DNA of 64,000 nucleotides, from the NCBI GenBank assembly GCA_017458125.1, contig JAFTGB010000002.1, forward strand, positions 1 to 64,000. Reading direction: 5' to 3'. Of the stretch, positions 1,858-64,000 are shown piece after piece (positions within the stretch are counted from its first letter, which is position 1; each line of letters opens with the position of its first letter). The position numbers were made by a program, and so were the translations under genes. The DNA is from Prevotella sp. Lineage in GTDB: Bacteria > Bacteroidota > Bacteroidia > Bacteroidales > Bacteroidaceae. The notes beneath the pieces were generated by a model. That model was given only the letters and a program-made list of their open reading frames with translations. It was not told where the DNA came from and did no database searches.

Positions 1858-2000
1858 CTTTTTGGCGTGTTTTTGGCGTGATAATTTAAAATTGGCGTGA
1901 TTAGTTCGATAATTGTTAAAATTATATAATTATATAATGCGTTTATTTTCAGAGATTTACAAACATTTGAATTAGACAGAAATCGATAGGATTTAACGCT

Positions 2001-2030
2001 TTGTTGTCCGGGTACCCCAACTAACAACAA
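2001..2030. other. Candidate attachment site (element/chromosome junction)
   Basis: A dyad-symmetric segment sits between the integrase promoter region and the terminator of the neighbouring chromosomal gene. TTGTTG and CAACAA arms flank a GGGTACCC palindrome (2010-2017). AT-rich element-like sequence lies to the left and the conserved DUF349 gene to the right. The call rests on position and symmetry only; the other att copy is outside the window. Confidence 0.35.
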
Positions 2031-2031
2031 C

Positions 2032-2062
2032 AAAAAAAAGGCTTCCATTCGGAAGCCTTTTT
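2032..2062. terminator. Rho-independent terminator, probably bidirectional
   Basis: A perfect 7-bp stem GGCTTCC (2040-2046) / GGAAGCC (2051-2057) with loop ATTC. An A8 run precedes it and a T run follows, so it can form a U-tailed hairpin on either strand. It lies 17 bp beyond the stop codon of the DUF349 gene. Confidence 0.85.
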
Positions 2063-31190: not shown

Positions 31191-34100
31191 CTATTGCTTG
31201 ATGTTAATAGTCGTCGACGGTGCTGTGGCCCTGAACTCAGGCGAGTAGGCGCACTGCACGGTGCAGGTGCCTGTCTCGTAGCAGCCTGCGCGGTCGATGT
31301 AGTATTCTGATTCTATGACGTGACGGCCCTTGGACAGTCCGGAGTAGTAATAGTTGGTGGAGCAGTCCTTGGGCGAAACGTAAGCACCGTTCTGGTAGCC
31401 TGACAGCTGGCGCACGGGCTCCATGCACGCAGCCCTGCGGTCGACAACCTGTACGAAGTCCAGGTCACGCGTCGTCTCGATGGTGATGCGTACCCTGACG
31501 CGTGAGCCTACGGCCAGTGCAGTAGTGCCGTCAGTGGCTGGCAGCAGTTCGCGCTTCACGGAGATGCCGCTCTGCGATGCCTTCACGTCGGACGTCTTCT
31601 GCAGGAACTGTGCGTAGACGGCACCCCACGACGTTCCCTCGCTGGTCTTGGTGGCAGTGAATGTCTTGCCTTCAGGGTGGCTGATGGCCGTCTTGACGTA
31701 GCCCAGTCCTGTCGTAGCTTTGGGCATATCGATGGGTCTGCCGTCAATAGCGAGTGCCGTCTCAGCCTTGGCTGCCAGCAGGTTGTTATGTCCGTGCAGG
31801 AAGGCGTAGATGGCGTTGACGCTGTTGATGGGCGTGTCCCAAACCTGCGTGCGCTTCTCCTGTAGCAGCCAGCGGCGCATTTCGTCAGCGGTCTGCTTGT
31901 CCTGCGGGGTGATGGCCTCTATGGCTTCCATGGCGGCCACCTCGGTAGGTATCTTGTAGTCGTACCACGAGTAGGCGGCCCGCTGTGTGTCGTAGTAGCG
32001 CCCCATCTCCTCCGTATAGACGGTGTACTCCTTCAGGCTCTGCACGTATTCGGCGGCGCGTTTGCTGTCGCCCTTCTTTGACAGGACGATGGCCGTCAGC
32101 GCTTTCTCGTAGATGGTCTGCCGTTTGATGTCTTTCTTCAGCAGTGTGATCAGGTAGTCGTTGGCCGACTGCACACGGCTTGGCAGCTGGCGGCCGTCCA
32201 ATGCGCAGAGGTAAAGCCAGCGCAGGGCAGCGAACGATGGGAAGGTGGGCTTCCGTCCCTTCTTCTCCTCCTTTTTCAGTTCGGCTACCAGGTCAGCCAT
32301 CTCCTGTCCCAAGTAGCTGAAGGCTTTCTCCTGCATCTCGTTGGTGTCGTCCTGTTGGCCTGCCATGTTGTTCAGTCGCACCAGCATCTCCTCTACCGCC
32401 ACGGTGATGGCCGTGCTGCCCTTCATGCCGGGATACCACGAGAAGGAGCCGTCAGCGTTTTGCAGCTTCTTCAGCTTCTCCAGTGCGGTGGTCAGCCGGT
32501 TGCTGATGCCGTTCTCGTCGAAGAAGTCGGCCAGCCGCTGTTTTTGTTCGCTCTCGCGGTCAGCGTCGGCCACCCAGGGCGTTTCAGCCAGCAGGAGGTC
32601 CTTCAGGTCTTGGTTTTGGGAGAGGTGAGAGGTTAGGGATGAGCGGTTATCGGTTTCGCGCTTCCACTGCTCGAAGACCGTTTTCACCTGCGGACTCTCG
32701 GCCAGCAGTGTCTTGGCCAGCAGGTTGGAGTAGTAAGATGCTGCCTGGTCGATGGCACTGTGTTCCCACGGCTGTCCGACGACGGGCAGGGCCTGCACCA
32801 TGAGCCATGCGGGGTTGTTGGTGTATTCTATGGTCAGCTTCTGCTGGGTGGTGCCTGCGGGGAACAGCTGTGTGAGGTCGATGCGCTTCACTCCCGCCTC
32901 GTGCTGCGTGAAGGGCACTGTGCGGGTGACATGCTCACGGTCGGGCAGCACGGGCAGATAGTGCTGTTCGCCGTCGCTGAAGCCTGCGCCTTGAGCCGTC
33001 ACCTTGCATACCAGCAGCGATTCGCTGAATGCGGAGCACTGGACTTGGAACGTGGCAACAGCCGTCGTACCAGCCTCGGCAGTGAACGGCTGCTCCTGCG
33101 CGCAGACCACCTTGCCAGTCTCCGGGTCTGTCAGTTGCAGTCGCGCCGTGCCGCTGACGGCGTGGTCGCTGGTGTTGAAGATGCGGGCAGCTATTTGTGC
33201 TTCGTCTCCCACGCGTACGAAGCGCGGTATGTTGGGTTGCACCATGACGTCCTTCTGCGCTATGGCTTCGCCTTCAATGTTGCCGTAGAGCATGTCGGCC
33301 GTGTTGGCAAGTCCCATGAAGCGCCATGTGGTCAGACTCTCGGGCAGTGTGAAGCTGAGCGTCACGCCGCCGTCCTTGTCAGTCAGCAGGGTGGGGTAGA
33401 AGAAGGCCGTCTCCTGCATGTTCTCGCGCAGCTGCACCTCCTGCGGTGTCTCCTCCTGCTGCTGCGGTGTCTCGCTCTTGGCCTCGTCAGCGGCTGCTTC
33501 GCTGAAGGAGCCTATGGCCTGGTTGCTCTCCTCTGCGGCCATCATCATGGGTGCTGCCGCCTTGGACGCCATCAGCATTCGTCCTGCGCGGCCTCGCACA
33601 TGGATGAAGTGCTGGTAGTAGGGGTAGATGCTGCTGTCGAAGTGGCTGTACTCAAAGCCGGGAATGTTCAGCAGTTTGTATTTGAAGTGTCTTGACAGGT
33701 GTGCGCTGCCCCCTGTGGGCCACTGCCAGGCGGTGGACGGCAGCGACAGGTAGCTTTCGGCAGCGAACGGCCATCCGTGGCCGACTATCTGGTCAAGGCT
33801 CTTGTCGTAGAGCACAGCCATGAGCGACGCCTCGGCGGGTTTGCCGTCCGGCGTCTCTATCTTCAGCCGCCACTCCTCCTGCTGGCCCGGCGTCAGCCGG
33901 TCGCGGAAGGTCTGCCACGTCAGCCGCAGCTGCTTGTCGGGCATGGGGCGTTTGATGGTTTGCGTGTGGCGGTAGCACTGTCCCTCCTTGACCCACGCGT
34001 AGGTCAGCAGCAGTCCGTTGCCGTATTCGTCCCTGTAGGTCAGCTTGCGGTTGAGCAGTTCCTCGCTGAGCTTCAGCGTGCCGCGCTCCACCACCGTGCT

Positions 34101-36527
34101 GCCGGCGTAGATGCCATAGACGATGTGCAGGTCGGGGTCCGTAGCTCCTACCTGCAGGGTCACGGGACTGCCGTCGTCGGGGAATTGGGTGTGCGACACG
34201 TAGAACCAGTCGTGCGTCTGGGTCGCGGGCTTTTTGTCGTCGAGACTGAAGACGACGAACTTCATGTCGATGGTGTCCTGCTGGCAGACGGCCTGCAGGC
34301 GGTGTTCGCCGGTTGAGAGTTGAGGGTTGAGGGTTGAGGGTTGGGTGTTGGCGGCGCACTGCTGCCACTGGCCGTCGTCTATGCGGTAGCTCACCGTGCC
34401 GGCTATCTCCTTGCCTGCGGCGTTGTAGCGGTGGAAGGCGAACGCCGGCAACTGGTCCTTACGCACCTGCTCAGGCAGGTCGCAGGTCAGGGCCGTGGGC
34501 TTTGTGCCTAAGGGCAGCGACATGGTGCCGTGGTGGCTCTCGCCAGCCACGTCGGTCACGTCGGCCTCCACCACGAAGTGGTAGTACATGTTGCGTCCGT
34601 CCAGTCCGTCGGGCAGCACGAGCGGCATCACCACCGGGAAGGTGCCGTCGTCGGCCGTGGTCACGTCGCCCTCATACAGCTGTTCCGTCTCTATGCCGTT
34701 GCCCATGTCGCCCGTTTGCCAGTAGCGCGAGTAGGACAGCCACCAGAAAGCCACGCGGCGCTTCACCGTGTAGTGCACCTTGGCTCCCTGCACGGGCACG
34801 CCGGCATAGCTGACGGCCTTGCCCGTGGTGCGCACGGTGTCGCCCTGCCGGTACTGCTGCTTATACTCCGGAAACTCCACTTGGAATGTGGGGCGCTTGT
34901 ACTCCTCGACGCGGAAGCTGGTGCTGGTGTCGTTGGCGCGTATGGTGAAGTGGCCGTTCAGCTGCCCCGTGGGCAGGGTGAATGCCGTAGCGCACCGCCC
35001 GAAGCGGTCGGTGGTCACCTGTTTCTCAGCTACTACCTTGTAGTTGGCGTCGCGCAACTCCATGGTGACGGCCTTGTCGCCCACGGCTTTGCTGGCGGTG
35101 GCGGAGCATGTCTTCCATACGATGGCTGCTACATGTACCGTCTGTCCCGGGCGGTAGATGCTGCGGTCGGTGAACAGGGTGGTGCGCTCGGTGTTGTATT
35201 TATGGTCGTAGTAGCCGTAGTGTCCGTAGCTGCTGAACGTCGGACTATAGTTGTCGGTGGCGGTAAAGGCAAATACGGCTGACGGTAGTGTCCTGCCCGT
35301 CTTCAGCAGGTATTCGCCCTGCTTGTCGCAAGTGTGCTGTTCGTTGCGCTTTTGTCCCCTGTCGTGGTAGGTCATGCGCAGGGTGGCCCCGCTGAGGGGT
35401 TGCCCCGTGCGGGCGTCGACCACGACGTAGCGCATCACGTCGTTGGGCATGGCCTGTGCCAGCACGCGTACAGCCGACACGTAGAGCAGCGTGCGTGAGG
35501 CTTTCATCCCCGGGGCGCTGCACTCCACGAGGTAGACACCGGCGGGCAGTCCTTCAAGGCGCACGGAGTCTTCAAACGTTTCCGGCTCGGCGTGCTTGCC
35601 TAAGGCGACGGTGCGGGCATGGCTGGCCACTTCCTTCATTCCCGGCGCTATGCGGGCGAAGTCCTTTTCGTTGTCGGGGCTCAGCTCGGTGTCGCCGTTC
35701 AAGGTGGTGCGGTAGACGCGTACGGTCAACTGCTCAATATTGCGCAGGTCGTGCAGCCGCAGCGTCTGCCCCTCGCCGGGCATGACCACCTGCCGTGGCA
35801 GCTCTGCCTGGAACTTAGGGTAGGTCAGCAGCGTCCACGCGTTCTGTCGTCTCTGTTTGATGATGTCGGCCTCGGGCAGGTCGCCGTACAGCGCGCTCAG
35901 CGAGTCTAACTGCTCCACGCTGTCTGCCGTCCTAAGTGCTATGTGGCACAGGGCACGGCGGTTGCCGGCCTTCTCGTAGTATTGCGTCAGCCACGGCCAG
36001 GCCTCCAACTCGCTGCCTACAACGCTCAGCAGGTCGTTGTTGAAAGCCTCGCTGTCCTTGCCGCCGACGACGAAGGGCGCATAGGCGCCGGCCTGCACCC
36101 GAGCCAGCAGGTCGGGCTGTGCGGTGGCGCGGTCGTAGTAGTGCTTGCTGCGTGCAGCCCAGTCGTCTAACTGGCGGTTGTCGGTGTAGACTTTCGAGAG
36201 CACGGTGGCATAGACGGCCCTCAACGCCTCGTCCTTGGCCTGGCGCTCCTCGGCTTCCAGGCGGTCGATGGCCGGGCGAAGCGAGTCGGGGGCTACTTCG
36301 CCCTGCAGGCGTGCGTAGAGCAGTGTCGACTTCAGCAGCTGTCCGTAGGCACGTTCCTTCCGGGCCTTGGACTCGATGCGCAGCAGGTGCTGCATGGCAG
36401 TGCGGGGCAAGTCTTTCCGCTGTGCCTCCTCCACCTGTTTCCAAATATGCTGATAGGTCTGTCCGAATGTCTCCATTGTCGAAAGCAGCACTGCTGCAAG
36501 CAGCAGCCATAGTCCATGTCTCTTCAT
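31191..36527 (-). CDS. Bacterial alpha-2-macroglobulin family protein, thioester-less
   Basis: About 1778 residues from ATG 36527 (MKRHGLWLLL); an in-frame ATG at 36536 is also possible. Signal peptide 1-22, an alpha-helical N-terminal region, and MG2-MG3 at about 440-560 (TTLFTDRSIYRPGQTVHV). A Met/Ala/Gln/Glu-rich stretch near 985-1040 sits where a bait region would be. The A2M domain (FFYPTLLTDKDGGVTLSFTLPE), MG7-like strands (NIPRFVRVGDEAQI), the alpha/alpha barrel (about 1260-1600) and the receptor-binding-like beta domain follow. The CxEQ thioester motif expected in the barrel is absent. Likely an envelope protease inhibitor. Two heptamer arrays interrupt the coding sequence. Confidence 0.9.
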   Translation of the reverse strand: MKRHGLWLLLAAVLLSTMETFGQTYQHIWKQVEEAQRKDLPRTAMQHLLRIESKARKERAYGQLLKSTLLYARLQGEVAPDSLRPAIDRLEAEERQAKDEALRAVYATVLSKVYTDNRQLDDWAARSKHYYDRATAQPDLLARVQAGAYAPFVVGGKDSEAFNNDLLSVVGSELEAWPWLTQYYEKAGNRRALCHIALRTADSVEQLDSLSALYGDLPEADIIKQRRQNAWTLLTYPKFQAELPRQVVMPGEGQTLRLHDLRNIEQLTVRVYRTTLNGDTELSPDNEKDFARIAPGMKEVASHARTVALGKHAEPETFEDSVRLEGLPAGVYLVECSAPGMKASRTLLYVSAVRVLAQAMPNDVMRYVVVDARTGQPLSGATLRMTYHDRGQKRNEQHTCDKQGEYLLKTGRTLPSAVFAFTATDNYSPTFSSYGHYGYYDHKYNTERTTLFTDRSIYRPGQTVHVAAIVWKTCSATASKAVGDKAVTMELRDANYKVVAEKQVTTDRFGRCATAFTLPTGQLNGHFTIRANDTSTSFRVEEYKRPTFQVEFPEYKQQYRQGDTVRTTGKAVSYAGVPVQGAKVHYTVKRRVAFWWLSYSRYWQTGDMGNGIETEQLYEGDVTTADDGTFPVVMPLVLPDGLDGRNMYYHFVVEADVTDVAGESHHGTMSLPLGTKPTALTCDLPEQVRKDQLPAFAFHRYNAAGKEIAGTVSYRIDDGQWQQCAANTQPSTLNPQLSTGEHRLQAVCQQDTIDMKFVVFSLDDKKPATQTHDWFYVSHTQFPDDGSPVTLQVGATDPDLHIVYGIYAGSTVVERGTLKLSEELLNRKLTYRDEYGNGLLLTYAWVKEGQCYRHTQTIKRPMPDKQLRLTWQTFRDRLTPGQQEEWRLKIETPDGKPAEASLMAVLYDKSLDQIVGHGWPFAAESYLSLPSTAWQWPTGGSAHLSRHFKYKLLNIPGFEYSHFDSSIYPYYQHFIHVRGRAGRMLMASKAAAPMMMAAEESNQAIGSFSEAAADEAKSETPQQQEETPQEVQLRENMQETAFFYPTLLTDKDGGVTLSFTLPESLTTWRFMGLANTADMLYGNIEGEAIAQKDVMVQPNIPRFVRVGDEAQIAARIFNTSDHAVSGTARLQLTDPETGKVVCAQEQPFTAEAGTTAVATFQVQCSAFSESLLVCKVTAQGAGFSDGEQHYLPVLPDREHVTRTVPFTQHEAGVKRIDLTQLFPAGTTQQKLTIEYTNNPAWLMVQALPVVGQPWEHSAIDQAASYYSNLLAKTLLAESPQVKTVFEQWKRETDNRSSLTSHLSQNQDLKDLLLAETPWVADADRESEQKQRLADFFDENGISNRLTTALEKLKKLQNADGSFSWYPGMKGSTAITVAVEEMLVRLNNMAGQQDDTNEMQEKAFSYLGQEMADLVAELKKEEKKGRKPTFPSFAALRWLYLCALDGRQLPSRVQSANDYLITLLKKDIKRQTIYEKALTAIVLSKKGDSKRAAEYVQSLKEYTVYTEEMGRYYDTQRAAYSWYDYKIPTEVAAMEAIEAITPQDKQTADEMRRWLLQEKRTQVWDTPINSVNAIYAFLHGHNNLLAAKAETALAIDGRPIDMPKATTGLGYVKTAISHPEGKTFTATKTSEGTSWGAVYAQFLQKTSDVKASQSGISVKRELLPATDGTTALAVGSRVRVRITIETTRDLDFVQVVDRRAACMEPVRQLSGYQNGAYVSPKDCSTNYYYSGLSKGRHVIESEYYIDRAGCYETGTCTVQCAYSPEFRATAPSTTINIKQ
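32617..32651. repeat. Degenerate heptamer array inside the A2M gene
   Basis: TGGGAGA GGTGAGA GGTTAGG GATGAGC GGTTATC in 7-bp phase. It encodes a Ser/Thr/Leu/Asn-rich insert (NRSSLTSHLSQNQ) in the helical barrel region. Confidence 0.6.
34311..34352. repeat. Heptamer array inside the A2M gene
   Basis: GGTTGAG AGTTGAG GGTTGAG GGTTGAG GGTTGGG TGTTGGC, six phased units. They encode the loop NTQPSTLNPQLSTG between two beta-strands of a macroglobulin domain. Confidence 0.8.
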
Positions 36528-36548
36528 CGCGTACATATTTTATGTGCG

Positions 36549-51504: not shown

Positions 51505-53763
51505 TTAAGCCTGCAACAGGGTGTCTAACGACTCCTGCTCACCGACAATCCAAATGATGTCTCCTTCTTGGAAGCGACGCGTGGGAGGGAACGGCGACAA
51601 GTTCTCTTTACCTTCTTCCAAACCCACCACCATGCAGCTGTAGATGTCGCGGATGCCGCTTTCTATCAGTGTCTTACCCACAAAGGGACTATTGCTGCCG
51701 ATGATGAGCTGCTGAAGTTTCATCTCGCGTTTCTCCAAGTACAAGTCCTCGCCTATTACCTCGTCGTTGATGGCTTTTCCGAACTTGCTCAGCTGCTCGT
51801 CACTGCCAATGACCTGTAGCTTGTCGCCGGGGAAGATGATGTAGTCGCCGTCGGGAATGTTCAGGCGGTTGTTGGCGCGCAGGATGCTGCTGATATGTAC
51901 GCCGTACTTGTGGCCTAAGTTCAGTTGCTTGAGCGTGGAACCCATCCACTGCGAGTTCATGGGGATGTCGAAGTCGGCAATGTGGACGTCACGATCCAGC
52001 AGCTTACCCTCGTAGAGCGGTCGCTTCTTGCCGTGTATCTGGGCTTGGATGTCGCGCGAGCGCAGGTTCAGGATGAAGAGCCGCTCTAACCGGATGCTGC
52101 GCGACTTGACGGTGCGCGAGAGCACGATGAGCACGACGGCCACGATGCCGATGGTAATCATGATGGCATTGGTGAAGTGGCTCAGTGAGTTGCAGATGTA
52201 GAAGATGAAGGTCACGGCAATGATGGCACGCACCAGAATGGTGAACAGCAGTGGCAGACGGTTGACGTTGCTCTCGTTCCATAGTGTCTTGAACTCCTCA
52301 CTATGGTTCTTCTTCATCACCATGGCGCGCAGGAAAGGCGAGATGATAAGTACCGTCAGCACGCCTGTGATAGCGTTGGCATACCAGTGCAGGCTCCAGC
52401 CCGGTAGCAGTTTGAGCATGAAGGGCAGCACGAAGGTGAACATGACGGCGATGGTGGCCGACGTGAGAATGGAGTAGACCATGGTGTTGATGGCCATCTG
52501 CGTGAGCAGTTTCTTCCACAGGCTCTGTTCTGACGAGTTGGGGTGACTCATAGTCAGGCGGTTGAGTACCATGATGAGCTTGCGGGGCAGATGGCGCTCT
52601 AAGACGTTGTAGGCCGGCGTGGCCAGTCGTATCATGTAGGGTGTGAGGAAGGTGGTGATGACCGACACAGCCACGACCACAGGATAGAGGAAGTTGCTGA
52701 TGACACCTAACGACAGACCTAACGAGGCGATGATGAAAGAAAACTCACCAATCTGAGCCATGGAGAAACCGCAGCGCATGGCCGACTTGAGCGACTCGCC
52801 ACCTAACATGAACGAAATGGTGCCGAAGACGCACTGGCCTAACAGGATGGTCAGCACTAAGGCGATGATGGGCAGGGCATAGTCGACCAGTATCTTGGGG
52901 TCGACGAGCATGCCGACGGACACGAAGAAGATGGCACCGAAGAGGTTCTTCACCGGTTCCACCAGCTTTTCTATGCGCTCAGCTTCGACAGTTTCTGCCA
53001 GGATGCTGCCCATGATGAATGCACCGAAAGCCGACGAGAAGCCCACCTTGGTGGAGAATACGGCCATGGCGCAGCACAGACCTAACGACACGATGAGCAG
53101 CACCTCAGCGTTGATGAGTTTGCGCACCGAACGCAGGAACTGCGGAATAGCAAAGATGCCCACCACTAACCACAGCACTAAGAAGAAGGCTATCTTGACC
53201 ACGCTACCCAGCATCTGCCCGCCGTCGGCCCCATTGCCGCTGGCTACGGCACTCAGCATCACCATCATCACAATGGCCAGAATGTCCTCCAGGATGAGCA
53301 CCGACATGACCAGTCCGGCAAATTGCTGTTGGCGCAGCCCTAAGTCGTCGAAAGCCTTGTAGATGATGGTGGTGGAACTCATAGCCAGCATGCCGCCGAG
53401 GAAGATGCAGTCCTCCTTGTCCCACTCGAAGAGGTGCCCCACGACGACACCTAACATGGACATGGAGAAGATGATGGTGATGGCCGATATGATGGGCGAT
53501 GCCCCCATCTTCAGTATCTTCTTGAACGAGAAGTCCAGTCCTAACGAGAACAGCAGGAACATCACGCCGATGTCGGCCCACAGGTGTACGCTCTCGGTCT
53601 CGGTGACCGACACGGTATAAGGCATGTGGGGACTGACCAGAAATCCGGCCACGATGTAGCCGAGCACTAAGGGCTGCTTCAGCCGTTTGAATATCAGGGT
53701 GACGATGCCTGCCGAGATAAGGATGATGGCAAGGTCGTTGATAAGGGCGGGTAGTTCTGCCAT
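51505..53763 (-). CDS. CPA2-family cation:proton antiporter with two TrkA_C domains
   Basis: 752 residues: a Na+/H+ exchanger domain of 12-13 helices (about 5-400) with GYIVAGFLVSPHMP, FLLFSLGLDFSFKK and SLGLCCAMAVFSTKVGFSSAFGAFIMGSILAET. An additional helical region (about 430-560) follows, then two regulatory TrkA_C (RCK_C) domains (about 590-670 and 675-750), without a full TrkA_N Rossmann domain. KefB/YbaL-type exchangers move K+ or Na+ out in exchange for protons. It starts 17 bp after the MATE gene, so it may be the last gene of the NRPS operon. No -7 box is evident before it. Confidence 0.9.
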   Translation of the reverse strand: MAELPALINDLAIILISAGIVTLIFKRLKQPLVLGYIVAGFLVSPHMPYTVSVTETESVHLWADIGVMFLLFSLGLDFSFKKILKMGASPIISAITIIFSMSMLGVVVGHLFEWDKEDCIFLGGMLAMSSTTIIYKAFDDLGLRQQQFAGLVMSVLILEDILAIVMMVMLSAVASGNGADGGQMLGSVVKIAFFLVLWLVVGIFAIPQFLRSVRKLINAEVLLIVSLGLCCAMAVFSTKVGFSSAFGAFIMGSILAETVEAERIEKLVEPVKNLFGAIFFVSVGMLVDPKILVDYALPIIALVLTILLGQCVFGTISFMLGGESLKSAMRCGFSMAQIGEFSFIIASLGLSLGVISNFLYPVVVAVSVITTFLTPYMIRLATPAYNVLERHLPRKLIMVLNRLTMSHPNSSEQSLWKKLLTQMAINTMVYSILTSATIAVMFTFVLPFMLKLLPGWSLHWYANAITGVLTVLIISPFLRAMVMKKNHSEEFKTLWNESNVNRLPLLFTILVRAIIAVTFIFYICNSLSHFTNAIMITIGIVAVVLIVLSRTVKSRSIRLERLFILNLRSRDIQAQIHGKKRPLYEGKLLDRDVHIADFDIPMNSQWMGSTLKQLNLGHKYGVHISSILRANNRLNIPDGDYIIFPGDKLQVIGSDEQLSKFGKAINDEVIGEDLYLEKREMKLQQLIIGSNSPFVGKTLIESGIRDIYSCMVVGLEEGKENLSPFPPTRRFQEGDIIWIVGEQESLDTLLQA

Positions 53764-53780: not shown

Positions 53781-55118
53781 TTATTCTGCTTGTTGTTTGA
53801 ATTTTAAAGTGAATTGTATGTTCGTCGCCTTATGGATGACTACGATGGCAATGGCTTCTATCAGGTAGGCTATCAGGTAGCTGTACCATAACCCTTCGGG
53901 TGCCAGACGGGACATCGCCCAAAGCACGGGGATGACGGTCAGTGAGAGTGCAAACGAGATGAACAGTGCCATGCGATGATGGCCGAAGAGCTTGTAGACA
54001 ATCATAATGACATAGATGTAACAGAAGGGAATGAAACTCAGCGAGAAGATGCGTAGCGCATGCCTTCCTTCTGATATCATGCCGTCATCGGAAGCCCCGA
54101 AGAACTGCGTGATAGCTTCGGGGTCTATCCATACAAGCGCACAGGTTGCCATCATGGCTATGGTGATAAAGTTGAACGACTTGCGCAGCACCAAACGGAA
54201 CGACTCGCTGTCGCCCTTGCCCACCTGAATAGCACCCAACGACTGGATGGTGCGACAGACACCGGCCAGAAAGAGATTGTAGACCTGTAACAGGTTCATA
54301 CATACGGCAAATGCAAAGATGCCGGTACGTCCCACCGTTGACAGCACAATTGTGTTGGCACTATACAGCAGCAGCGTCAGACAGATAGAGGCTACAGCCA
54401 GAGGAGCGCCCTGGGATATGATGCCACCTAAGGCAGGATGGTTGTGAGTCCATGTAAAGTGAAGATGTTGATCTTTGTAGTGGTAGTGCCAGCACATGAT
54501 TGCGATGCCGACAAGATGGCCCACCACTGTTGCGGTAGACGAGCCTTCGATGCCCCATCCAAACCACTTGATGAACACGATGTCGAGGCAGAGGTTTACT
54601 ACATTGTCGACCATGATGGCCAGGCTGACAAGTCGTGGACTGCCGTCAACTCCCACCATTGTCCCCATGGCCCACACCATCATATAGGCTGGTGCACCGA
54701 TAAGCATGGGTATGAGGTAGTCAAGGGTGGGTTGGATGAGCAACTCATTCTTACAAAGCCAGCCTGCAACAGTGCCGGGAATAGTAAGCCCGGTGAGGGT
54801 AAGCATCAACCCCACTGCCAGACATGAAGCCATCGAGACCGTGTAGATGTAAGCGGCACGAGCCATGTCTTTCTTGCCCAGTTCGATACCCACCAGCATG
54901 CCTGCACCTGTGGATAGAAGCATGCTGAGGGTAAACATAAACTGGATGACCGTTCGTGAGATGTTGATGGCACTTACACCGTCCTCGCCTACCAGGTTAC
55001 CTACGATGATACCGTCAACAACATTACCAAGACAGCCAGAGAGGGCAATAAGTATTGATGACCATAGAAATCGCCAATATTCTTTGTTGAACGAAACTTT
55101 GTCTTCTTGATTCATCAT
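53781..55118 (-). CDS. MATE-family exporter in the NRPS operon
   Basis: 445 residues, twelve membrane helices in two six-helix halves: first half SSILIALSGCLGNVVDGIIVGNLVGEDGVSAINI, second half GGIISQGAPLAVASICLTLLLYSANTIVLSTVG. A basic/aromatic C-terminus follows. It is a different clade from the MATE at 15650-17011. Only 8 bp separate it from the NRPS stop codon; the same strand and transcript suggest export of the peptide product (inference). ATG ATG tandem start at 55118. Confidence 0.9.
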   Translation of the reverse strand: MMNQEDKVSFNKEYWRFLWSSILIALSGCLGNVVDGIIVGNLVGEDGVSAINISRTVIQFMFTLSMLLSTGAGMLVGIELGKKDMARAAYIYTVSMASCLAVGLMLTLTGLTIPGTVAGWLCKNELLIQPTLDYLIPMLIGAPAYMMVWAMGTMVGVDGSPRLVSLAIMVDNVVNLCLDIVFIKWFGWGIEGSSTATVVGHLVGIAIMCWHYHYKDQHLHFTWTHNHPALGGIISQGAPLAVASICLTLLLYSANTIVLSTVGRTGIFAFAVCMNLLQVYNLFLAGVCRTIQSLGAIQVGKGDSESFRLVLRKSFNFITIAMMATCALVWIDPEAITQFFGASDDGMISEGRHALRIFSLSFIPFCYIYVIMIVYKLFGHHRMALFISFALSLTVIPVLWAMSRLAPEGLWYSYLIAYLIEAIAIVVIHKATNIQFTLKFKQQAE

Positions 55119-55126: not shown

Positions 55127-58100
55127 TTAGTCAAAGAAACCAAAACCACCAATGGCTGTAAGCATGCGCTCAACGTAATCCCACGAAGTGGGTGTCCATG
55201 CGAAGCCCAAGCGATAGAGCACCTGGGTCGTATAGTCGTTGTCGCGCTGTACGTCGGTGGTCTTCTGACCGTGAGCCATGTCCTTATAGGCAAGCAGGGC
55301 CGCCATTTGCTTTGCTTTCTGCGGATCCTGACCAGCCTCGTCCATGACCTGCTGGAATTCCTCCTGTTCCACGAAACGTATACCGTTAGTCACAGAAGAC
55401 AAACCGGAAAGAACGTCTCCCAAGAACTGACCGTGGATGTTGTAAGGATGGAACACGGTACATTCCTTTGGTGTAGTGGTCAACAATACGATGGCTTGAG
55501 CAACCTCGTTGATAGGGGAGAACTCGACACGCTTATTACGCATAGTGTGTGGACAGCAGCCCAGCATATTGTAGATGCGTATGCGGCCCATGAACGAATT
55601 GGTAGAGAAGTTAGCCTGGAACTCACCGTCAGTCGAACGGGCAGCCAGATTGCCGACACGCATAATCTTCGCATTCAGTCCATGCAGGGCTACTGCATCG
55701 AGAATCAGCCGTTCGGCCATGAATTTAGAGTAGATGTACTGATTGCCTAAATACTGGCCCATGTAGAGACGCTGTTCGGTATAGACGTCTTCCTTGATTT
55801 CGCCTGCCCACAGTCCACGGGTGCTGGCCGTAGAGATGTGTATGAGCTTGGCTCCGGTCTTGATGCAGAATTCCACACAACGCTGGGCTCCGCCGATGTT
55901 TACGTCTTCTATCTCCGTGCCTTCACTGAAATGCTTCACTACGGCAGCACAGTTGAAGACGGTGTCAACCTTCAAATCGGAGTCTATATCTTGTGTCACG
56001 TCACCAAGTATTACATGTAAACGCTCGCCGAACAGGTCTTTGTAGGACTTGGCGAAGTAATAGAACAGCAGGGTGCGCAGACGGCTCTCGGCAGCCTCCG
56101 GTGTCTTTCCACGCACGAGGCAGTAGATGTTCTGAGCGTCGCTGTTTATCAGTTCATGCAAGATGTGGATGCCCAAGTAGCCTGTAGCACCGGTCACCAG
56201 CACATTGCCCAGTGGCTGGCGCTCACCGCTACGGAAGAATCCGAGGTTGTTGCGCTGCAGCAGATTGTTGATGGCCGTGTAGTCGAAATTGGCTACGGGG
56301 TCATTGGCGTTGGCACTGTCATCTGCTGTCTCGCCGGTAATCAGACGAGCCAACTTGCGTGGTGTCGGGTTGGCAAAAACTTCACCATACGACACATGGA
56401 GTCCGGCTTTGTCGGCCTCGATAATGACACGCGTGACAACCAGTGAGGTTCCACCAAGTTCAAAGAAGTTGTCAGTCGCACCAACTTTGTCCAACTGAAG
56501 GATGCCGGCAAAGATGTCGCAGAAGGCCCGCTCGGTGTCGTTGGCGGGTGCCTCATATTCGCCGCTGACGGCAATCTCCGGCTCGGGCAGTGCCTTCAGG
56601 TCGGTCTTGCCGTTGGGTGTCATCGGCATCTTCTCCAGCTGCAGGTAAGCCGTGGGCACCATATACTGTGTGAGGCTCTTGCTGATTTCTGACTTCATCT
56701 TGCCAATATCGATGGGGCGGTCGGCGGTGAAGTAGGCGCAGAGATGTTCCTTGCCGCCTATCTGCCGTATCATGATGACCACGTTCTTCACGCCTTCCAC
56801 GCGGGCGATGACACTCTCCACCTCGCCCAGCTCGATGCGCAGTCCGCGCAGTTTAATCTGGTGGTCCTTACGTCCCAGGATAAAGACATCGCCGTCGGAG
56901 GCCCATTTGGCGTAGTCGCCCGACTTGTAGACGCGTGTGCCGTGATAGTCGATGAAGCGCTCTCGCGTCATGTCGTCCAGGTTGTTGTAGCCCCGGCCTA
57001 CGCCTCGTCCGCCGATATACAGTTCGCCCACCACGCCCACAGGCAGCTCGTTGCCGTCGCTGTCGACAACAAACTCCTTGACATTGAGCTGTGGACGGCC
57101 TACGGTGACGCGCTCGGCATGGGTTAGCTCCTGGATGTTCGACGATACGGTAGTCTCTGTCGGCCCGTAGGTGTTCAGTATGCGCGACGGTGTGAGCTGT
57201 TGCATCTGGTGGAGCAGGCTCTCGGGAAGTTTTTCACCGCCGAAGCGTATGATGGGTACGGTGCGGATGGCCTCGATGAAATCGTCGCTGTATATCCACG
57301 TCTGCCACTGTGAAGGTGTTGCCGACACATAGCCGATGTGGTGCTGCCGGATGAGCGCAGCCATATCGAGCGGGTTCTTGGTCTGGTCCTCGTTGGCCAG
57401 CACCAGGGTGAGTCCGTTGAACAGCGAGATGGCTATCTCGTGCAGCGAGGCGTCAAACGAGATGGTGGTGACAGCCAGGATGCTCTCTGCGGCATTGGCT
57501 ACGGCGTAAGCCTCCACGTTGGGCGGCAGTGGCGTGCTGTAGTTGCACATGCCCTCGTGACGCAGCATGACACCCTTTGGGCGTCCTGTGGAGCCGCTGG
57601 TATATATCAGGTACGCGAGGTTGTCGGGCGTCAGTGTCGTCTGCGGCAGAGTCGTCTCTTCGCAGGCGAGCAGCTCCTCGGCCACCTCCGGGGTGATGAT
57701 CAGTTTGGCGCCGCTGTCCTCCAGAATCAGTTTCACACGGTCTGCGGGATATTCCGGGTCGCAAGGGATATAGGCTGCCCCGGCTTTCTGAATGCCGAAC
57801 ATCGAGAGGATGAGGCGGCTGGTGCGCGGCAGCAGCATAGCCACGCGGTCGCCCTCGTGCACTCCACGCTGGCGCAGCGCATTGGCTATGCGGTTGGTGG
57901 CCTGGTCAAACTCGCGGTAGGTGAACTGTGCATCACATGCTATGAGGGCCATGCGGTCGGGGTGCACCTGTGCGTGATGCACGATGCTTTCGAAGAAGAG
58001 CTTGAAAGGCGCCTCGCCCGTGCCGGTGGTACGTATCTGGTCCAGATGCTCCGCCTGCCGCTGGCTGACGATAGACAGCTGGCGCACTTTGCCGTCGGGC

Positions 58101-61100
58101 TGTGCCATGATATGCTCCACCGTGGCGGCAATGCTCTCTGCCAGCCCTTGCGCCGTTTCTGCGGTATACAGGGTGTCGTCATATTGCACCAGAATGCCAC
58201 GCGTCTCAATCTTGATATTGATTTTGAACTTGGGCACATTCAGTTCGAGCAGTTCCTGGCCCACGGCCTTGCCTCCTACGGTATATTCCGACAGCACCCC
58301 TACCTGGTAGGCGTAGGAGATGGCGGAGTGGAATCCATAGTCGGCGGCAATGCGTGCGTAGGGGTAGTCCTCGTGGCGCAGCGTCTCGTCGAAGGTTTCG
58401 CTGACTTGTCGCAGGTATTCACCCACCGTCACGTCGTCAATTTTCAAGCCGAGAGCCAGTGTGTTGACAAACATACCCACCGTGTCTACTATCTTCAGGT
58501 TGGAGCGGCCATTGCTGATGGTGCTGATGTAGACATCGCGGTTGTTGGTGTATCGGGACACCACATAGCCCACGGCGGCGAGATACAGATGGGCCGGCGT
58601 AATGTCGTGCTGCCGGCAGAAAGCGGCGGCTTTGTCGAGGTCGGTGGGACAAAGTGCCTCGCCGATAAATCCTTGCTGGTCGGTCTTGGGCAGGTCGGCA
58701 GGAATCTCGCTCGCCCCTTCTGAGGTGCCCAGCTTCTCGGCAAAGAACTGCTGAGCCGACTTGAATGTCTCGCTGTCCTCCGCTTTCTGCTGGTCGCTGA
58801 CGAAATCGAGATAGGTGTAGCGTTCCTGCTCGATGGCATGGCCGTCAAGCACACCGTTGAGCTGACGGATGAACAAATCGGCAGAACCACCGTCGAACAC
58901 CAAGTGGTGAACATCCATCAGCAGGTGGGTGCCGCTCTCGCTCTTCACCACCTCGAAGCGGTAGAGCGGTGCCTTCTGCAGGTTGAACGGCCGGACGAAG
59001 TCCTGCTTATAGGCAGCGAGCTCGTCGTCCGTCATTTCACTGACGGCAACCTCTACGGGTACACTGCCCTCGGTGGTCTGCACAATCTGGTCGCCCTCAG
59101 TGGCAAAGTGGACACTCAGCTCCGGATGTGCCTCCACAACCTGCTTGACAGCTTGTGCCAGCTGCCCGGCATCTATATCTGCCGGATAGCTGAGCAAGTA
59201 AGGAATGTTATAGATGGTCGAAGTGGGATTCTTCAGGCATTCAAAGTAGACGCCTGTCTGGGCGTAGCTCAGTGGAGCCACCGACGGTGTTTCTCTCTTG
59301 GGGGCATCTGTTGGCGTAACAGCTGCACCCGACATCATCTGCTTCAGTATCTCGTTCTCGATACCTTGCAGCGTACCGCTCTTGACCAGCGACTTAGAGT
59401 CGAGGGTGACACCAAAGCGCTTGTTCACCTGTACAGCCAGTTTTATTGACGATATAGAGGTCAGACCGGCATAGCCAAGAATGGTGGTGATGCCGAACTC
59501 GGTATTATTCACAATACCGGCAATCATATCGTGAAGCTCCTGTTCCAGGATGTTCATCGGTACGTTCGACTCCTCTACGGCAGCATCCTTTTTCTCTGGC
59601 TTAGGCAGTGCCTTCTTGTTCACCTTCTGGTTCTGGTTCAGTGGTATCTTGTCAATCTGCATCGTCACGGCAGGCACCATGTAGGGGGGCTTTTGGTCAA
59701 GGATAAAGTTGTTCAGTGCCTCAATGTCTATTTGTTCATCGCTGACGATGTAGGCTGCGATGAACTTTCCGCCACCGGCCTCGTCAAAGGCCTGTACGGT
59801 GGCGTCCTTGATGCCGGGGAACTCGCGGATGACACCTTCCACCTCTTTCAACTCGATGCGGAAACCACGAATCTTCACCTGTCCGTCGCGACGGCCTACG
59901 AAGGCGATGTTGCCGTCGGGCAGATAGCGTACGATGTCGCCCGTACGATAGACGCGAGCATACTTTTTGTCGTCAGAGACGAACGGGTTCGCAATGTAAA
60001 CCTCGGCCGTCTTCTCGGGGCGGTTCAGATAGCCGCGGCTCACCTGCGGACCGCTGACCCATAGCTCACCGGCAGCACCAATGGGCAATCGGCGTCCCTG
60101 AGAGTCTACAATGTAGAGCCGCATGTTGTCCAGCGGTTTGCCAATGGGGATGTCCTTCTGTTTCTTGTCCACCCGATAGGTGGTGGTATAAATGGTACAC
60201 TCCGTGGGGCCATAGGCATTATAGAACTGATAGTCTTTCGGAGGAGTGATGCTGGCCAACTTTTCGCCACCGGTAGAGAGATACATGAGCGAGTGGTTCT
60301 CGATGTTCGAGGCAAACTGGAAGCCCACTTGGGTGGTCATAAACGAGTGGGTGATGTGCTCACGCTCGAAGTAGTCGTTCAGGGCAATGAGATCCAGACG
60401 AATTTCCTCCGGGATAATGTGAACGGTGGCACCGCATGTCAGCGCGGGATACATATCCATCATGCAGGCATCGAAGCCGTAGCTGGCGTAGGCCGCCACG
60501 TTGTGCTCAGCCGTCAGACCATAGAAACGCTGGTACCAATGGATGAAGGCCACCATGTTGCTGTGAACGAGCTGGCAGCCTTTAGGCACGCCCGTCGAGC
60601 CGGACGTATAGAGCATGATATACATGTTGGAGGGTTTGGGACCTTCGGGCAGTTCAGCCACAGCAGGCATACTGCTCAATTCTTTGGTCAGGATGACGTC
60701 TCCCTGATATTCGTCTACGATGGGGCGCAGTTCCTCGTCGGCTATCAACAGTTTCGCGCTGGCGTCCTGCATCATGAAGTTCAGACGCTCCTTCGGGTAG
60801 GTGGAGTCCAGCGGCTGATAGGCACAGCCAGCCTTCATCACACCCAGTGAGGCGATGGCCATCCACTCGCAGCGGGGAATGAGTACCGACACGACATCTT
60901 CTTCGCCCAATCCCTTCGACGCGATGTAGCCTGCGATGCGGTCGCTCAATTCGTCTACCTCTTTGTAGGTGTAGCGCTTGTTTTGATAGACGACGGCAAT
61001 GTTGTCAGGAGTCTCCTTGGCCTGTTGGCGGAACAGCGAGACGATGGTCTGGGTGTCATCGTAGTCTACGTCGGTGTGGTTGAACGAGTCAAGCAGTGCC

Positions 61101-62344
61101 ACCTGCGAGGCGGTGGCAATGTTGATATCGGTCAGTTTCTCTTCCGTGAGGAACCCCTCCACTACGGCCTCATAACTCTCCAGGAACTGTGAGATGAGTG
61201 CTTCTGAATACTCGTTGGCACGATACTCTGCCTCCACCAGATAGCGGCCGTCGAGGATATAAGCCTTCACATATACGGATACCCCTCCGGAGTTGTTGTT
61301 CAGTCGCTGTGCTGCCACCGGCGTTCCACAGAACTGAAGACTGTCGAATAGTTGTCCGTGCCATGCAAACGAGGTGGCTGTTTGCAGACCTAAGTCGTTT
61401 ACGGCGTCGCTGAAGGCATAGACCTCATGCTGACGGCAACCCGTCATTTGGTCTTGTCCTGCCTTCAGGAAGTCGAGCACCGTGGTGTCATTGTCGAACT
61501 TGGCATACACCGGAAGCGTTCTGACCAGCATGGCCACCGAGTGAGCCAGTCGTTTGTCGCTGCGTCCATTGTGTACCGTATAGAATAACACCTCTTGCTC
61601 GTTGTTGTACTTTGCCAGCAGATAGCTGTAGGCTGCCGTGAAGAAGGTGCTCTTGTAGATACCGTGCTCCTTGCAGAAAGTCTCGACTCGTTTGGTATCT
61701 ATACCCATGGTGCGGGTCAGCAGGCCCTCCTTGGCCTCGGCCTCCTCAAGGTCAGGAAGAATGGGTGAGTAGCAGTCGCCGCAGTCAAAATGCTCTGCAT
61801 ACCATTTCTTGTCTTCCTCGAAAGCCGGGCTCTCGCGCTGCTCAGCCTCCGTCTTGGCAATGTCGGCCATCGACAAAGTCTCCGGCTCCAGTTGCTTACC
61901 GCTGTAAGCATTTTCTATGTCTGCCAACAGCACTTTTCTTGACGAGCCGTCGCTGATGATGTGGTGGATGTCCTGAAGCAGATAGTAATGCTTGGCATCC
62001 TTCAACAGCCGGATGCGGAACAGTCTGTCTTTATACAGGTCGAAGGGCTGGACGAACCGGGCCTTTTCTGCCTCGATGTCTGTCGTGTTCTCTATCTCTA
62101 AGGAGAAGGTTTCCGCATCGTCGACGGTCTGCACAGTGTCGCCCTGCTCAGTCAGTTCTATACGCGTGAACAGTGTCGGGTGTGCAGCTACGGCGGTCTC
62201 AATGGCCTCTTTCAGCTTCTGCCCGTCCAGACTGCCGTCGAACGTATCCAGATAAGGCATGTTATAACAAACCTCTCCCTGGTGTTCAAAACATTCCACA
62301 TAGAGGCCATACTGTACTTTTGTTAATGGTGCTGTTGCTTTCAT
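55127..62344 (-). CDS. Dimodular non-ribosomal peptide synthetase, C-A-PCP-C-A-PCP-reductase
   Basis: 2405 residues from ATG 62344 (MKATAPLTKVQYG); an upstream in-frame ATG at 62422 would overlap the OMP gene. C1 about 5-430 (HHIISDG near 130). A1 455-912 (YTSGSTGVPKG ~578, YGPTECT ~711, YRTGDIV, RGFRIEL ~828, NQKVNKKALP ~909). PCP1 930-1000, with an unusual core GLTSISSI (Ser ~961). C2 1025-1440 (HHLVFDG ~1145). A2 1465-1920 (YTSGSTGRPKG ~1581, YGPTETT ~1728, NGKTDLKALP). PCP2 1935-2005 (LGGTSL). Thioester reductase 2045-2405 (TGATGYLG, YIYSK). It joins two amino acids and releases the product by NAD(P)H reduction as an aldehyde or alcohol; aldehydes can cyclise to pyrazinones. No epimerase domain and no separate loading domain. 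Confidence 0.95.
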   Translation of the reverse strand: MKATAPLTKVQYGLYVECFEHQGEVCYNMPYLDTFDGSLDGQKLKEAIETAVAAHPTLFTRIELTEQGDTVQTVDDAETFSLEIENTTDIEAEKARFVQPFDLYKDRLFRIRLLKDAKHYYLLQDIHHIISDGSSRKVLLADIENAYSGKQLEPETLSMADIAKTEAEQRESPAFEEDKKWYAEHFDCGDCYSPILPDLEEAEAKEGLLTRTMGIDTKRVETFCKEHGIYKSTFFTAAYSYLLAKYNNEQEVLFYTVHNGRSDKRLAHSVAMLVRTLPVYAKFDNDTTVLDFLKAGQDQMTGCRQHEVYAFSDAVNDLGLQTATSFAWHGQLFDSLQFCGTPVAAQRLNNNSGGVSVYVKAYILDGRYLVEAEYRANEYSEALISQFLESYEAVVEGFLTEEKLTDINIATASQVALLDSFNHTDVDYDDTQTIVSLFRQQAKETPDNIAVVYQNKRYTYKEVDELSDRIAGYIASKGLGEEDVVSVLIPRCEWMAIASLGVMKAGCAYQPLDSTYPKERLNFMMQDASAKLLIADEELRPIVDEYQGDVILTKELSSMPAVAELPEGPKPSNMYIMLYTSGSTGVPKGCQLVHSNMVAFIHWYQRFYGLTAEHNVAAYASYGFDACMMDMYPALTCGATVHIIPEEIRLDLIALNDYFEREHITHSFMTTQVGFQFASNIENHSLMYLSTGGEKLASITPPKDYQFYNAYGPTECTIYTTTYRVDKKQKDIPIGKPLDNMRLYIVDSQGRRLPIGAAGELWVSGPQVSRGYLNRPEKTAEVYIANPFVSDDKKYARVYRTGDIVRYLPDGNIAFVGRRDGQVKIRGFRIELKEVEGVIREFPGIKDATVQAFDEAGGGKFIAAYIVSDEQIDIEALNNFILDQKPPYMVPAVTMQIDKIPLNQNQKVNKKALPKPEKKDAAVEESNVPMNILEQELHDMIAGIVNNTEFGITTILGYAGLTSISSIKLAVQVNKRFGVTLDSKSLVKSGTLQGIENEILKQMMSGAAVTPTDAPKRETPSVAPLSYAQTGVYFECLKNPTSTIYNIPYLLSYPADIDAGQLAQAVKQVVEAHPELSVHFATEGDQIVQTTEGSVPVEVAVSEMTDDELAAYKQDFVRPFNLQKAPLYRFEVVKSESGTHLLMDVHHLVFDGGSADLFIRQLNGVLDGHAIEQERYTYLDFVSDQQKAEDSETFKSAQQFFAEKLGTSEGASEIPADLPKTDQQGFIGEALCPTDLDKAAAFCRQHDITPAHLYLAAVGYVVSRYTNNRDVYISTISNGRSNLKIVDTVGMFVNTLALGLKIDDVTVGEYLRQVSETFDETLRHEDYPYARIAADYGFHSAISYAYQVGVLSEYTVGGKAVGQELLELNVPKFKINIKIETRGILVQYDDTLYTAETAQGLAESIAATVEHIMAQPDGKVRQLSIVSQRQAEHLDQIRTTGTGEAPFKLFFESIVHHAQVHPDRMALIACDAQFTYREFDQATNRIANALRQRGVHEGDRVAMLLPRTSRLILSMFGIQKAGAAYIPCDPEYPADRVKLILEDSGAKLIITPEVAEELLACEETTLPQTTLTPDNLAYLIYTSGSTGRPKGVMLRHEGMCNYSTPLPPNVEAYAVANAAESILAVTTISFDASLHEIAISLFNGLTLVLANEDQTKNPLDMAALIRQHHIGYVSATPSQWQTWIYSDDFIEAIRTVPIIRFGGEKLPESLLHQMQQLTPSRILNTYGPTETTVSSNIQELTHAERVTVGRPQLNVKEFVVDSDGNELPVGVVGELYIGGRGVGRGYNNLDDMTRERFIDYHGTRVYKSGDYAKWASDGDVFILGRKDHQIKLRGLRIELGEVESVIARVEGVKNVVIMIRQIGGKEHLCAYFTADRPIDIGKMKSEISKSLTQYMVPTAYLQLEKMPMTPNGKTDLKALPEPEIAVSGEYEAPANDTERAFCDIFAGILQLDKVGATDNFFELGGTSLVVTRVIIEADKAGLHVSYGEVFANPTPRKLARLITGETADDSANANDPVANFDYTAINNLLQRNNLGFFRSGERQPLGNVLVTGATGYLGIHILHELINSDAQNIYCLVRGKTPEAAESRLRTLLFYYFAKSYKDLFGERLHVILGDVTQDIDSDLKVDTVFNCAAVVKHFSEGTEIEDVNIGGAQRCVEFCIKTGAKLIHISTASTRGLWAGEIKEDVYTEQRLYMGQYLGNQYIYSKFMAERLILDAVALHGLNAKIMRVGNLAARSTDGEFQANFSTNSFMGRIRIYNMLGCCPHTMRNKRVEFSPINEVAQAIVLLTTTPKECTVFHPYNIHGQFLGDVLSGLSSVTNGIRFVEQEEFQQVMDEAGQDPQKAKQMAALLAYKDMAHGQKTTDVQRDNDYTTQVLYRLGFAWTPTSWDYVERMLTAIGGFGFFD

Positions 62345-62367
62345 AATGTTTATAGTTTTTAGTGTAG

Positions 62368-63708
62368 TTACCATTTGGTGCTGAATAGGCGTGGCGAAAC
62401 GATGAGTGAAAACCATCCCCATCGCACAGCTTTGTCACCCGCCTCTTGCTTTAGTCTGTCCATGGTCTTGGTGCCGTACATGAACGAGTATCCTGCCGAC
62501 AGTGCCACGTCTTTCGAGAACTGGTAGGAGGCCTCCAGCTCAATGTCGTGCCCCAGAGTCATGTCCAGTCCTTCCAGACTGGTGGCAACGGCCATGTAGT
62601 GGTAGGCGCCTTTGATGGCCAGCGGTGTCACCGGCTTGCACTGTACGCCGATATATGCGTTCTGCAGTCCTGGTGTGAAACCGCAGGAGTAGGCACTCTC
62701 GTAGAAGTAGTCCATGACGCCGAAGAATTTATGGTGCGAGCCGTAGACCGTGTTGAACCCTTTATACACCTCGTGGTATGGCATTCCCATGGAACCGGGT
62801 TTGGGAACGGGTACGTAGTCGTCGCCACTTAGGTAGTCGTATCCCATTTCCAGTTTCACCTTGTCTGTGGGGTAGTAAGCCACCTTGCCGCTGGCCATCC
62901 AGGCATTAATCCTCTTCTCGTATTCATTGTGTCCCGTCTGGCGGTAGTATGAGCCCTCCACTTTCCACTGTCGGGGCGTGTAAGTCAGGTATCCGCCTAA
63001 CAGCTGTTGGTATTCAGTGTGGGCGTCTTTGCCTTTCGTGCCGGCCTGCATACCGATGTTCATAAACAGTAGGGAGGCTCCGATGGGAATTTTGGGCACA
63101 TCATAATGATACCACAATATATGCATGGTCTTATACGCCTGAGCACCGTCTTTGTAGTAGGTTCCAGTGGTCATGTTCTCCTGGTTTTGGTTATAAGCCA
63201 GCAGTATGTGGGCCTGATGGCCGTACCCCTGATAGCCTACACGAACTATGTCGTGAGTCTTGGAGGCCATTGCCCAGTCGTTAGGTCCTATGATGCGCTC
63301 GTCGTCGTACGACAAGGCGATACGGCCTATCTGTCCGAACAGTCCGAAAGGTGCTGTCAGCTTGGCCCATCCTTCATACAGGTTGACGGTAGCATTGTTC
63401 TTCTGCCCCCAGACGGCCTGGTTCTGCAACACAGCCTTTGCTTCTAAGACCCCTCGCTGGTACTCTACTGCCAGTCGGGTGCGCCCCAGCAGGAAATTGG
63501 CACGTTTCTCCACTGCTTCTTCGGAATCTATGATTCCGGGCAATCCTCCCCCTCGCACTTCTCCGTGGGTTATGAAGTTCAATCCGATGCTCAGTTTGTT
63601 CTCTTTCCGCTGCGTGCTGACACTGTCCGTCTGAGCCCAGCCACTGACGTGGGTCGTCAATAGTGCGGCCAATAGCCATCCGTGGTGCATGGATTGCTTT
63701 GTGCTCAT
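62368..63708 (-). CDS. Outer-membrane barrel protein of the NRPS operon
   Basis: 446 residues with a signal peptide (cleaved near GWA-Q). About 16-18 amphipathic strands, rich in Tyr/Gly, begin LSIGLNFITHGEVRGGGLPGIIDSEE and end WFSLIVSPRLFSTKW with a terminal aromatic. The layout is like alginate-export/OprP-type single-chain barrels (LLGRTRLAVEYQ, IGRIALSYDDERIIG). It lies 23 bp upstream of the NRPS and 14 bp downstream of the STAS gene on the same strand. Role could be product export across the outer membrane or an unrelated substrate channel. Confidence 0.75.
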   Translation of the reverse strand: MSTKQSMHHGWLLAALLTTHVSGWAQTDSVSTQRKENKLSIGLNFITHGEVRGGGLPGIIDSEEAVEKRANFLLGRTRLAVEYQRGVLEAKAVLQNQAVWGQKNNATVNLYEGWAKLTAPFGLFGQIGRIALSYDDERIIGPNDWAMASKTHDIVRVGYQGYGHQAHILLAYNQNQENMTTGTYYKDGAQAYKTMHILWYHYDVPKIPIGASLLFMNIGMQAGTKGKDAHTEYQQLLGGYLTYTPRQWKVEGSYYRQTGHNEYEKRINAWMASGKVAYYPTDKVKLEMGYDYLSGDDYVPVPKPGSMGMPYHEVYKGFNTVYGSHHKFFGVMDYFYESAYSCGFTPGLQNAYIGVQCKPVTPLAIKGAYHYMAVATSLEGLDMTLGHDIELEASYQFSKDVALSAGYSFMYGTKTMDRLKQEAGDKAVRWGWFSLIVSPRLFSTKW

Positions 63709-63722: not shown

Positions 63723-64000
63723 TTATTCGAAGTCGAAGATGTTGATGAAGCCCGTCAGTTTGAAGACATCCTTGATGTCGCTGTTGACGTTCCTAAGCAC
63801 TACTTTGCTGCCGTTGGCCTTGGCACCCTTCAGTATGCCCAGCAGGATGCGCAGTCCGCTGGATGCGATATATTCCAGTTTCTCGCAGTCAATGATAACG
63901 TCACGTCCGCCGCTCTCATAGAGGGGTTTCAGTGCTGTTTGGGCTTCCATTGCTGCTGCAGTGTCCATTTCTCCTTCCAGTGTGGCAACATACTTGCCAT
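63723..64000 (-). CDS. STAS-domain anti-sigma factor antagonist, 5' end outside the window
   Basis: At least 92 residues; the frame remains open to the window edge (GKYVATLEGEMDTAAAMEAQ). Only the first few codons are probably missing; the in-frame ATG at 63968 is internal by comparison with SpoIIAA-like proteins. The STAS core CEKLEYIASSGLRILLGILKGAK has the phosphorylatable Ser-Ser-Gly site, followed by LRNVNSDIKDVFKLTGFINIFDF. Such proteins sequester an anti-sigma kinase (RsbW/SpoIIAB type) when unphosphorylated. First visible gene of the NRPS operon; the kinase partner may lie beyond the edge. Confidence 0.87.
   Translation of the reverse strand, partial: GKYVATLEGEMDTAAAMEAQTALKPLYESGGRDVIIDCEKLEYIASSGLRILLGILKGAKANGSKVVLRNVNSDIKDVFKLTGFINIFDFE

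Follow-up and report, generated by a model that had tools for sequence, protein, structure and literature searches.

What does a two-module non-ribosomal peptide synthetase (NRPS) that ends in a reductase produce in a gut Bacteroidales bacterium, and do the genes beside it serve the same pathway? This question is raised by a gene in a 64,000-nucleotide stretch of a Prevotella sp. contig, the whole of which we call the window.

The synthetase and its operon

The NRPS is encoded by the minus-strand open reading frame at 55127-62422, in which the ATG at 62344 is the likely start (MKATAPLTK..., 2405 aa), since the gene before it stops at 62368 and relatives share the N-terminal pattern MK..APL..QYG; with this start, the coordinates given by the initial annotation are exact. 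The gene belongs to a tight operon in the order sensor, STAS, barrel, NRPS and MATE, with a 4-bp overlap between sensor and STAS, and with spacers of 14 bp (STAS to barrel), 23 bp (barrel to NRPS) and 8 bp (NRPS to MATE). The sensor gene lies just past the window edge, on a contig of 74,334 bases. In the direction of transcription, the genes are:

Contig 64022-66199 (beyond the window), minus strand: sensor with a PDC/Cache-type domain, a SpoIIE phosphatase and a HATPase_c_2 domain, by domain search
63723..64000 in the window (start at contig position 64025), minus strand: STAS protein of the anti-sigma-factor-antagonist type, 100 aa
62368..63708, minus strand: outer-membrane beta barrel, 446 aa, with an AlgE-like fold (Alginate_exp)
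55127..62344, minus strand: dimodular NRPS, C-A-PCP-C-A-PCP-R, 2405 aa, a single intact gene
53781..55118, minus strand: MATE exporter, 445 aa

The barrel passes the Alginate_exp model (PF13372) weakly, at 26.4 bits against a Pfam cut-off of 25.2, and this model is matched at E 1e-3 by 35 of 40 aligned barrel members, i.e., 39 of 59 listed relatives and the window's own. Its AlphaFold model has a mean pLDDT of 78.1, and the 17 best PDB matches are all AlgE structures, with identities of only 12-14%, TM-scores near 0.6 and rmsd of 6-9 Å. No sigma factor is seen in the operon, and a PPTase of the same genome lies on a separate contig. A Na/H exchanger with TrkA_C domains (51505-53763, minus strand) begins 17 bp after the MATE gene, and 4 of 82 loci, the window included, have such an exchanger close to the NRPS. 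Elsewhere in the window are a bacterial alpha-2-macroglobulin of 1781 aa, by family a protease trap (31191-36536, minus strand), and a tyrosine-integrase-like protein whose Pfam match is slightly below the cut-off (270-2048, minus strand).

Pfam identifies two Condensation stretches, two AMP-binding domains, two PP-binding domains and one NAD_binding_4 domain in the NRPS, in agreement with the order C-A-PCP-C-A-PCP-R that the initial annotation had read. The domains, all on the minus strand, are:

61070..62335: C1 domain, HHIISDG, the presumed cap loader and the most variable domain within every A2 class
59600..61057: A1 domain, code DAMFSGAIYK, nearest solved domain LgrA A1
59345..59572: PCP1, carrier serine S963 in GLTSIS
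58025..59293: C2 domain, HHLVFDG
56570..58012: A2 domain, code DAHSRGTVSK, which sets the residue becoming the aldehyde and occurs in classes
56330..56542: PCP2, carrier serine S1967
55130..56287: terminal thioester reductase (R), Thr2172-Tyr2203-Lys2207

Both HHxxxDG motifs are present, including that of the N-terminal C domain which had been described as intact, as are the D235, A5, A7, A8 and K517 residues of the A domains, the serine of each carrier domain and, in the reductase, GxxGxxG and Thr-Tyr-Lys. Across 86 aligned rows, the window included, the checked catalytic residues are invariant; the exceptions are gaps where a contig end truncates the row, a single G-to-Y change in the last position of the C1 motif and a single Arg-to-His change in A8. 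None of the essential C, A or R residues checked, whose loss the initial annotation had named as counting against its reading, is lost on this full alignment. We rejected an artefact or pseudogene on the grounds that the gene has no internal stop, its residues are intact and relatives occur in 79 named loci. The R domain best matches 6vtj in the PDB (E 1.4e-67), which we take to be an archaeal PCP-R didomain, followed by the R domain of AusA (3e-36).

The specificity codes of A1 and A2, first read by eye, were re-derived from motif anchors and came out identical. The pocket of LgrA A1, the substrate of which is valine, is hydrophobic like that of A1 in an alignment read by eye. In A2, 73 of 86 rows carry either Arg at 299 (classes DAH and DAQ) or Lys at 239 (class DMK), as counted from a MAFFT alignment with one representative per class checked by motif anchors. 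Since the common A2 classes thus have a basic residue in the pocket, we would guess, weakly, at an acidic or amide residue (Glu, Asp or Gln) in the P1 position.

The initial annotation had linked the NRPS to gut-associated synthetases of dipeptide aldehydes by domain order and by product. The shared order is a matter of background, in which C-A-PCP-C-A-PCP-R is the two-module order of the human-gut dipeptide-aldehyde NRPSs and, as the initial annotation also had it, their defining one; the window NRPS has this order and intact C, A, PCP and R catalytic residues. The product side of the link is borne out by passages of PMC12327764 and PMC8518294, in which gut NRPS clusters yield N-acyl dipeptide aldehydes that are termed protease inhibitors, for example ruminopeptin of Ruminococcus bromii, an N-acyl Leu-Glu aldehyde. 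The same passages bear on a product reduced further, i.e., that the reductase acts twice and the operon exports a capped dipeptide alcohol with another role, such as a surfactant or an antimicrobial. Triad-bearing R domains are described in part of PMC8949500 as capable of 2- or 4-electron reductions, but the gut NRPS products described so far in these passages are aldehydes, and we regard the alcohol as quite unlikely.

AusA (NCBIfam NF047350) is the sole curated model of a dimodular reductase NRPS that the protein matches, at 1177.3 bits, which is below the curated cut-off of 2500; the NRPS is therefore not AusA, and the membership in a known family that the initial annotation had kept in view is not found among the curated models matched. 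This match also bears on a second alternative, in which an uncapped amino aldehyde cyclises to a dihydropyrazinone or pyrazinone and serves as a signal, with no inhibition of proteases. The aureusimine of AusA, the best NCBIfam match, arises by imine cyclisation of an aldehyde, pyrazinone by-products are the form in which gut dipeptide aldehydes were isolated in part of PMC12327764, and partner-switch regulation would fit signalling. We nevertheless consider cyclisation unlikely, as the NRPS lies far under the AusA cut-off, and as all 84 of the 86 rows that reach C1 begin with this domain and retain its HH and D; this speaks for a cap, and a cap would prevent cyclisation. An acyl cap agrees with an N-terminal C domain bearing HHxxxDG, and the PDB matches of C1 do not tell starter from ordinary C domains.

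Distribution and conservation of the operon

A scan of named genomes returned 547 pattern matches and 473 coding relatives, the best of which were kept as 79 loci. Among these best 79 loci, 62 have record titles that name a ruminant source (ruminant, rumen or the label RUG, presumably rumen uncultured genome) and 17 name no host. The assignment to a gut Bacteroidales was thus correct, and by the titles of the best 79 of 473 relatives it can be narrowed to mostly ruminants (cattle, sheep, deer and related hosts). The 79 loci bear the NCBI labels Prevotellaceae, Bacteroidaceae, Muribaculaceae, Paludibacteraceae, Porphyromonadaceae and Tannerellaceae, with 15 lacking a family, and such labels of metagenome-assembled genomes (MAGs) are unsure. 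The gene is patchy in the window's own genus, where 4 of the 23 other species searched have strong matches. At E 1e-250, and with the own genome counted in each sample, the family sample gave 42 matches out of 399, spread over 11 of 30 genera and some of them partial or only 41-44% identical, the order sample gave 5 out of 393 and the phylum sample 1 out of 296; the other four matches of the order sample comprise two at 32-33% identity, one at 52%, and one at 72% over a portion of the protein. We also rejected an origin on a plasmid of PLSDB, since 2811 of 72,556 records matched, none with at least 60% identity, and the best among the matches listed reached 29.3%.

Several loci contain more than one synthetase. 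Six (L042, L079, L084, L094, L103 and L104) have two related NRPS genes each, on the same strand, and in five of these six the second gene has the A2 code DAEGTGVDDK. The second gene of L103 and that of L113 are versions with three modules, and a single-module gene is additionally present in L050. The window's own genome contains the end of a second NRPS (L033:2-3861, contig C86), which reads A-PCP-R and is cut by the contig. The MATE exporter behind it carries a HATPase_c_2 domain fused to its C terminus, and this fusion may link an exporter with a partner-switch kinase. A further A-domain piece in this genome is cut by the end of contig C3 (L034:7844-8884).

With the window's own proteins as tblastn queries, we counted neighbours in the best 79 loci of the 473 relatives; plain presence counts span the whole locus and may include unrelated copies. 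On this basis, among 66 loci whose upstream sequence extends for 4.3 kb or more, a STAS protein is present somewhere in 62, a sensor in 61 and a barrel in 57. The full order sensor-STAS-barrel-NRPS is found directly upstream in 48 of these 66, a barrel directly upstream without the full set in 5, and no barrel directly upstream in 13. Of 68 loci with at least 3 kb downstream, 59 have a MATE exporter somewhere and 53 have it on the same strand within 3 kb, while a PPTase is present in 27 and a PaaK/F390-synthetase-like ligase, i.e., of the acyl-adenylate type, in 9. Such a ligase lies directly 3′ of the NRPS in 8 of 82 loci (e.g., L047:17266-18615), with the order NRPS-ligase-MATE in six, and is a candidate supplier of the cap; that few loci carry a ligase for it is a counterpoint to an acyl cap. 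In one locus (L025, genome G008), the NRPS has no partner genes alongside.

Sensor, STAS, barrel and MATE proteins are each of a common type, and some loci have no barrel or MATE adjoining the NRPS, as might be seen if these genes were ordinary neighbours outside the pathway. Against this stand the retention of the order in 48 of 66 loci, which is common to MAGs labelled as several families with median protein identities of 45-66%, and the serine phosphatases, anti-sigma-factor antagonist and MatE exporter in the mru0068 cluster described in part of PMC2812497, and we judge mere adjacency to be very improbable.

Variation in A2 and C1

The code alignment kept 91 of 97 proteins, leaving out six distant NRPS-like proteins, and the 86-row set was obtained by removing the L050 single-module piece and three proteins that are tri-modular or cut, namely those of L099, L113 and the second gene of L103. 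L053, which is the same gene as L023, is inside the 86 rows and was dropped for comparisons of identity and silent divergence, and a PCP2-R tree was built on 83 rows.

Compared with the window, members of the DAH class have A2-core identities of 93-98% and C1 identities of 54-78%, and members of the DMK class have 56-57% in the A2 core, 92-93% in PCP2 and 89-91% in R. Mean A2-core identity is 95.0% within DAH, 87.5% within DAQ and 69.4% between the two, whereas C2 identity (78.8%, 73.2% and 70.9%, respectively) and R identity (86.2%, 80.9% and 80.1%) hardly drop between them. C1 is the least alike domain in the four larger classes, with 63.7% in DAH, 60.8% in DAQ, 77.6% in DMK and 69.6% in DAE. 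In the DAE and DAMF classes, the difference from the window extends beyond A2 to C2, PCP2 and R, i.e., from C2 onwards, and the block is therefore larger than A2 there; exchange of an A2 cassette would describe some of the classes, excluding DAE and DAMF.

Mapped on the PCP2-R tree, the A2 classes need 12 changes where the minimum is 6, and so appear to cut in part across the reductase tree. Part of these 12 changes may be tree error, because 28 of 79 inner branches are open and the well-supported ones force no more than 1 to 3 changes per A2 class. In most of the 16 pairs shown, silent divergence differs little from one part of the gene to another, with the pair of the window and L049 a clear exception, and in 2 of 2658 testable pairs it is significantly lower in A2 than in C1-A1 plus R after correction; both of these pairs, the window with L049 and L045 with L071, are of the DAH class. 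On this evidence we rejected the idea that a recent sweep keeps A2 so alike. Since silent divergence is about even along the gene, the conservation of A2 looks like mainly the effect of selection. We read these alignments as suggesting that A2 is strongly constrained inside each class and now and then exchanged, and that C1 is free to vary. The A2 classes are also natural experiments in the exchange of NRPS domains.

The proposed pathway and known systems

The operon is real, intact and conserved, and it appears to be a variant of a pathway type already known, the chemistry of which we infer. Our best explanation, to which we give somewhat better than even credence, is that it makes N-capped dipeptide aldehydes under the control of the sensor and exports them across both membranes, probably as inhibitors of proteases, where product, cap and residues are deduced from domains and family. 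In this pathway, a membrane sensor that combines a SpoIIE-type phosphatase with an RsbW-like kinase domain would answer an outside cue together with its STAS partner, and the NRPS would join a cap, brought in by C1, to two residues, a step for which the architecture is seen. A1 would pick a hydrophobic residue and A2 the second one, and the reductase, by analogy with its family, would free the product as a dipeptide aldehyde. From their folds and positions, the MATE pump would then take the product over the inner membrane and the AlgE-like barrel over the outer membrane. The product could instead be an alcohol formed by a second reduction, as part of PMC8949500 allows, or an amino aldehyde that cyclises. 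For a capped aldehyde, the most likely targets would be serine or cysteine proteases of the rumen or gut; a change of A2 class would change the aldehyde (P1) residue and with it the choice of protease, and C1, the most variable domain, may alter the cap.

A bolder version of this explanation, which we put forward tentatively and consider rather doubtful, is a system, centred on the rumen and possibly cross-domain, for the secretion of peptide aldehydes that inhibit proteases, in which a partner-switch sensor, a swappable P1-setting A domain, and a MATE pump with a dedicated AlgE-like channel would let ruminant Bacteroidales vary inhibitor specificity on one chassis shared with methanogens. If the product does inhibit proteases, it would have a bearing on protein breakdown in ruminants.

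Part of PMC8241843 reports 5,346 NRPS clusters from the rumen, 934 of them in Bacteroidaceae, and places Prevotella NRPSs among 17 clusters with feed-efficiency-dependent expression, 16 of which were higher in less efficient steers; the words reductase and aldehyde are absent from its main text. Our search of the literature, outside which most subscription papers lay, found no published study of this operon in rumen Bacteroidales. Among rumen NRPS clusters without products, the operon stands out for a testable product class, an equally testable export route and natural A-domain classes.

The known systems resemble the operon in different parts. AusA, the aureusimine synthetase, ends in an R domain like the window NRPS and is its best NCBIfam model, yet the score is below the cut-off and AusA lacks the leading C domain that the window NRPS has. 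AlgE shares the outer-membrane barrel fold at the low identity given above, and it exports alginate, whereas the cargo of the window barrel is presumably a small peptide. The human-gut NRPSs (the Clostridium cluster BGC0001686 and that of R. bromii ruminopeptin), which we liken by published descriptions, make N-acyl dipeptide aldehydes and come from another phylum than the window, and part of PMC10039858 describes a dipeptide-aldehyde clan in cultured human gut genomes in which every cluster is from Blautia. The closest published arrangement that we found appears to be mru0068 of the rumen archaeon Methanobrevibacter ruminantium M1, described in parts of PMC2812497 as a dimodular NRPS with a leading C domain and an unknown product that has two serine phosphatases, a MatE exporter and an anti-sigma-factor antagonist around it; its terminal domain is a thioesterase in the main text and a thioester reductase in a supplementary figure legend. 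Because its host is archaeal, no outer-membrane barrel is expected there, unlike in the window operon, but a phosphatase, an anti-sigma antagonist and a MATE exporter beside a dimodular NRPS are, by the published text as distinct from the sequences, common to both.
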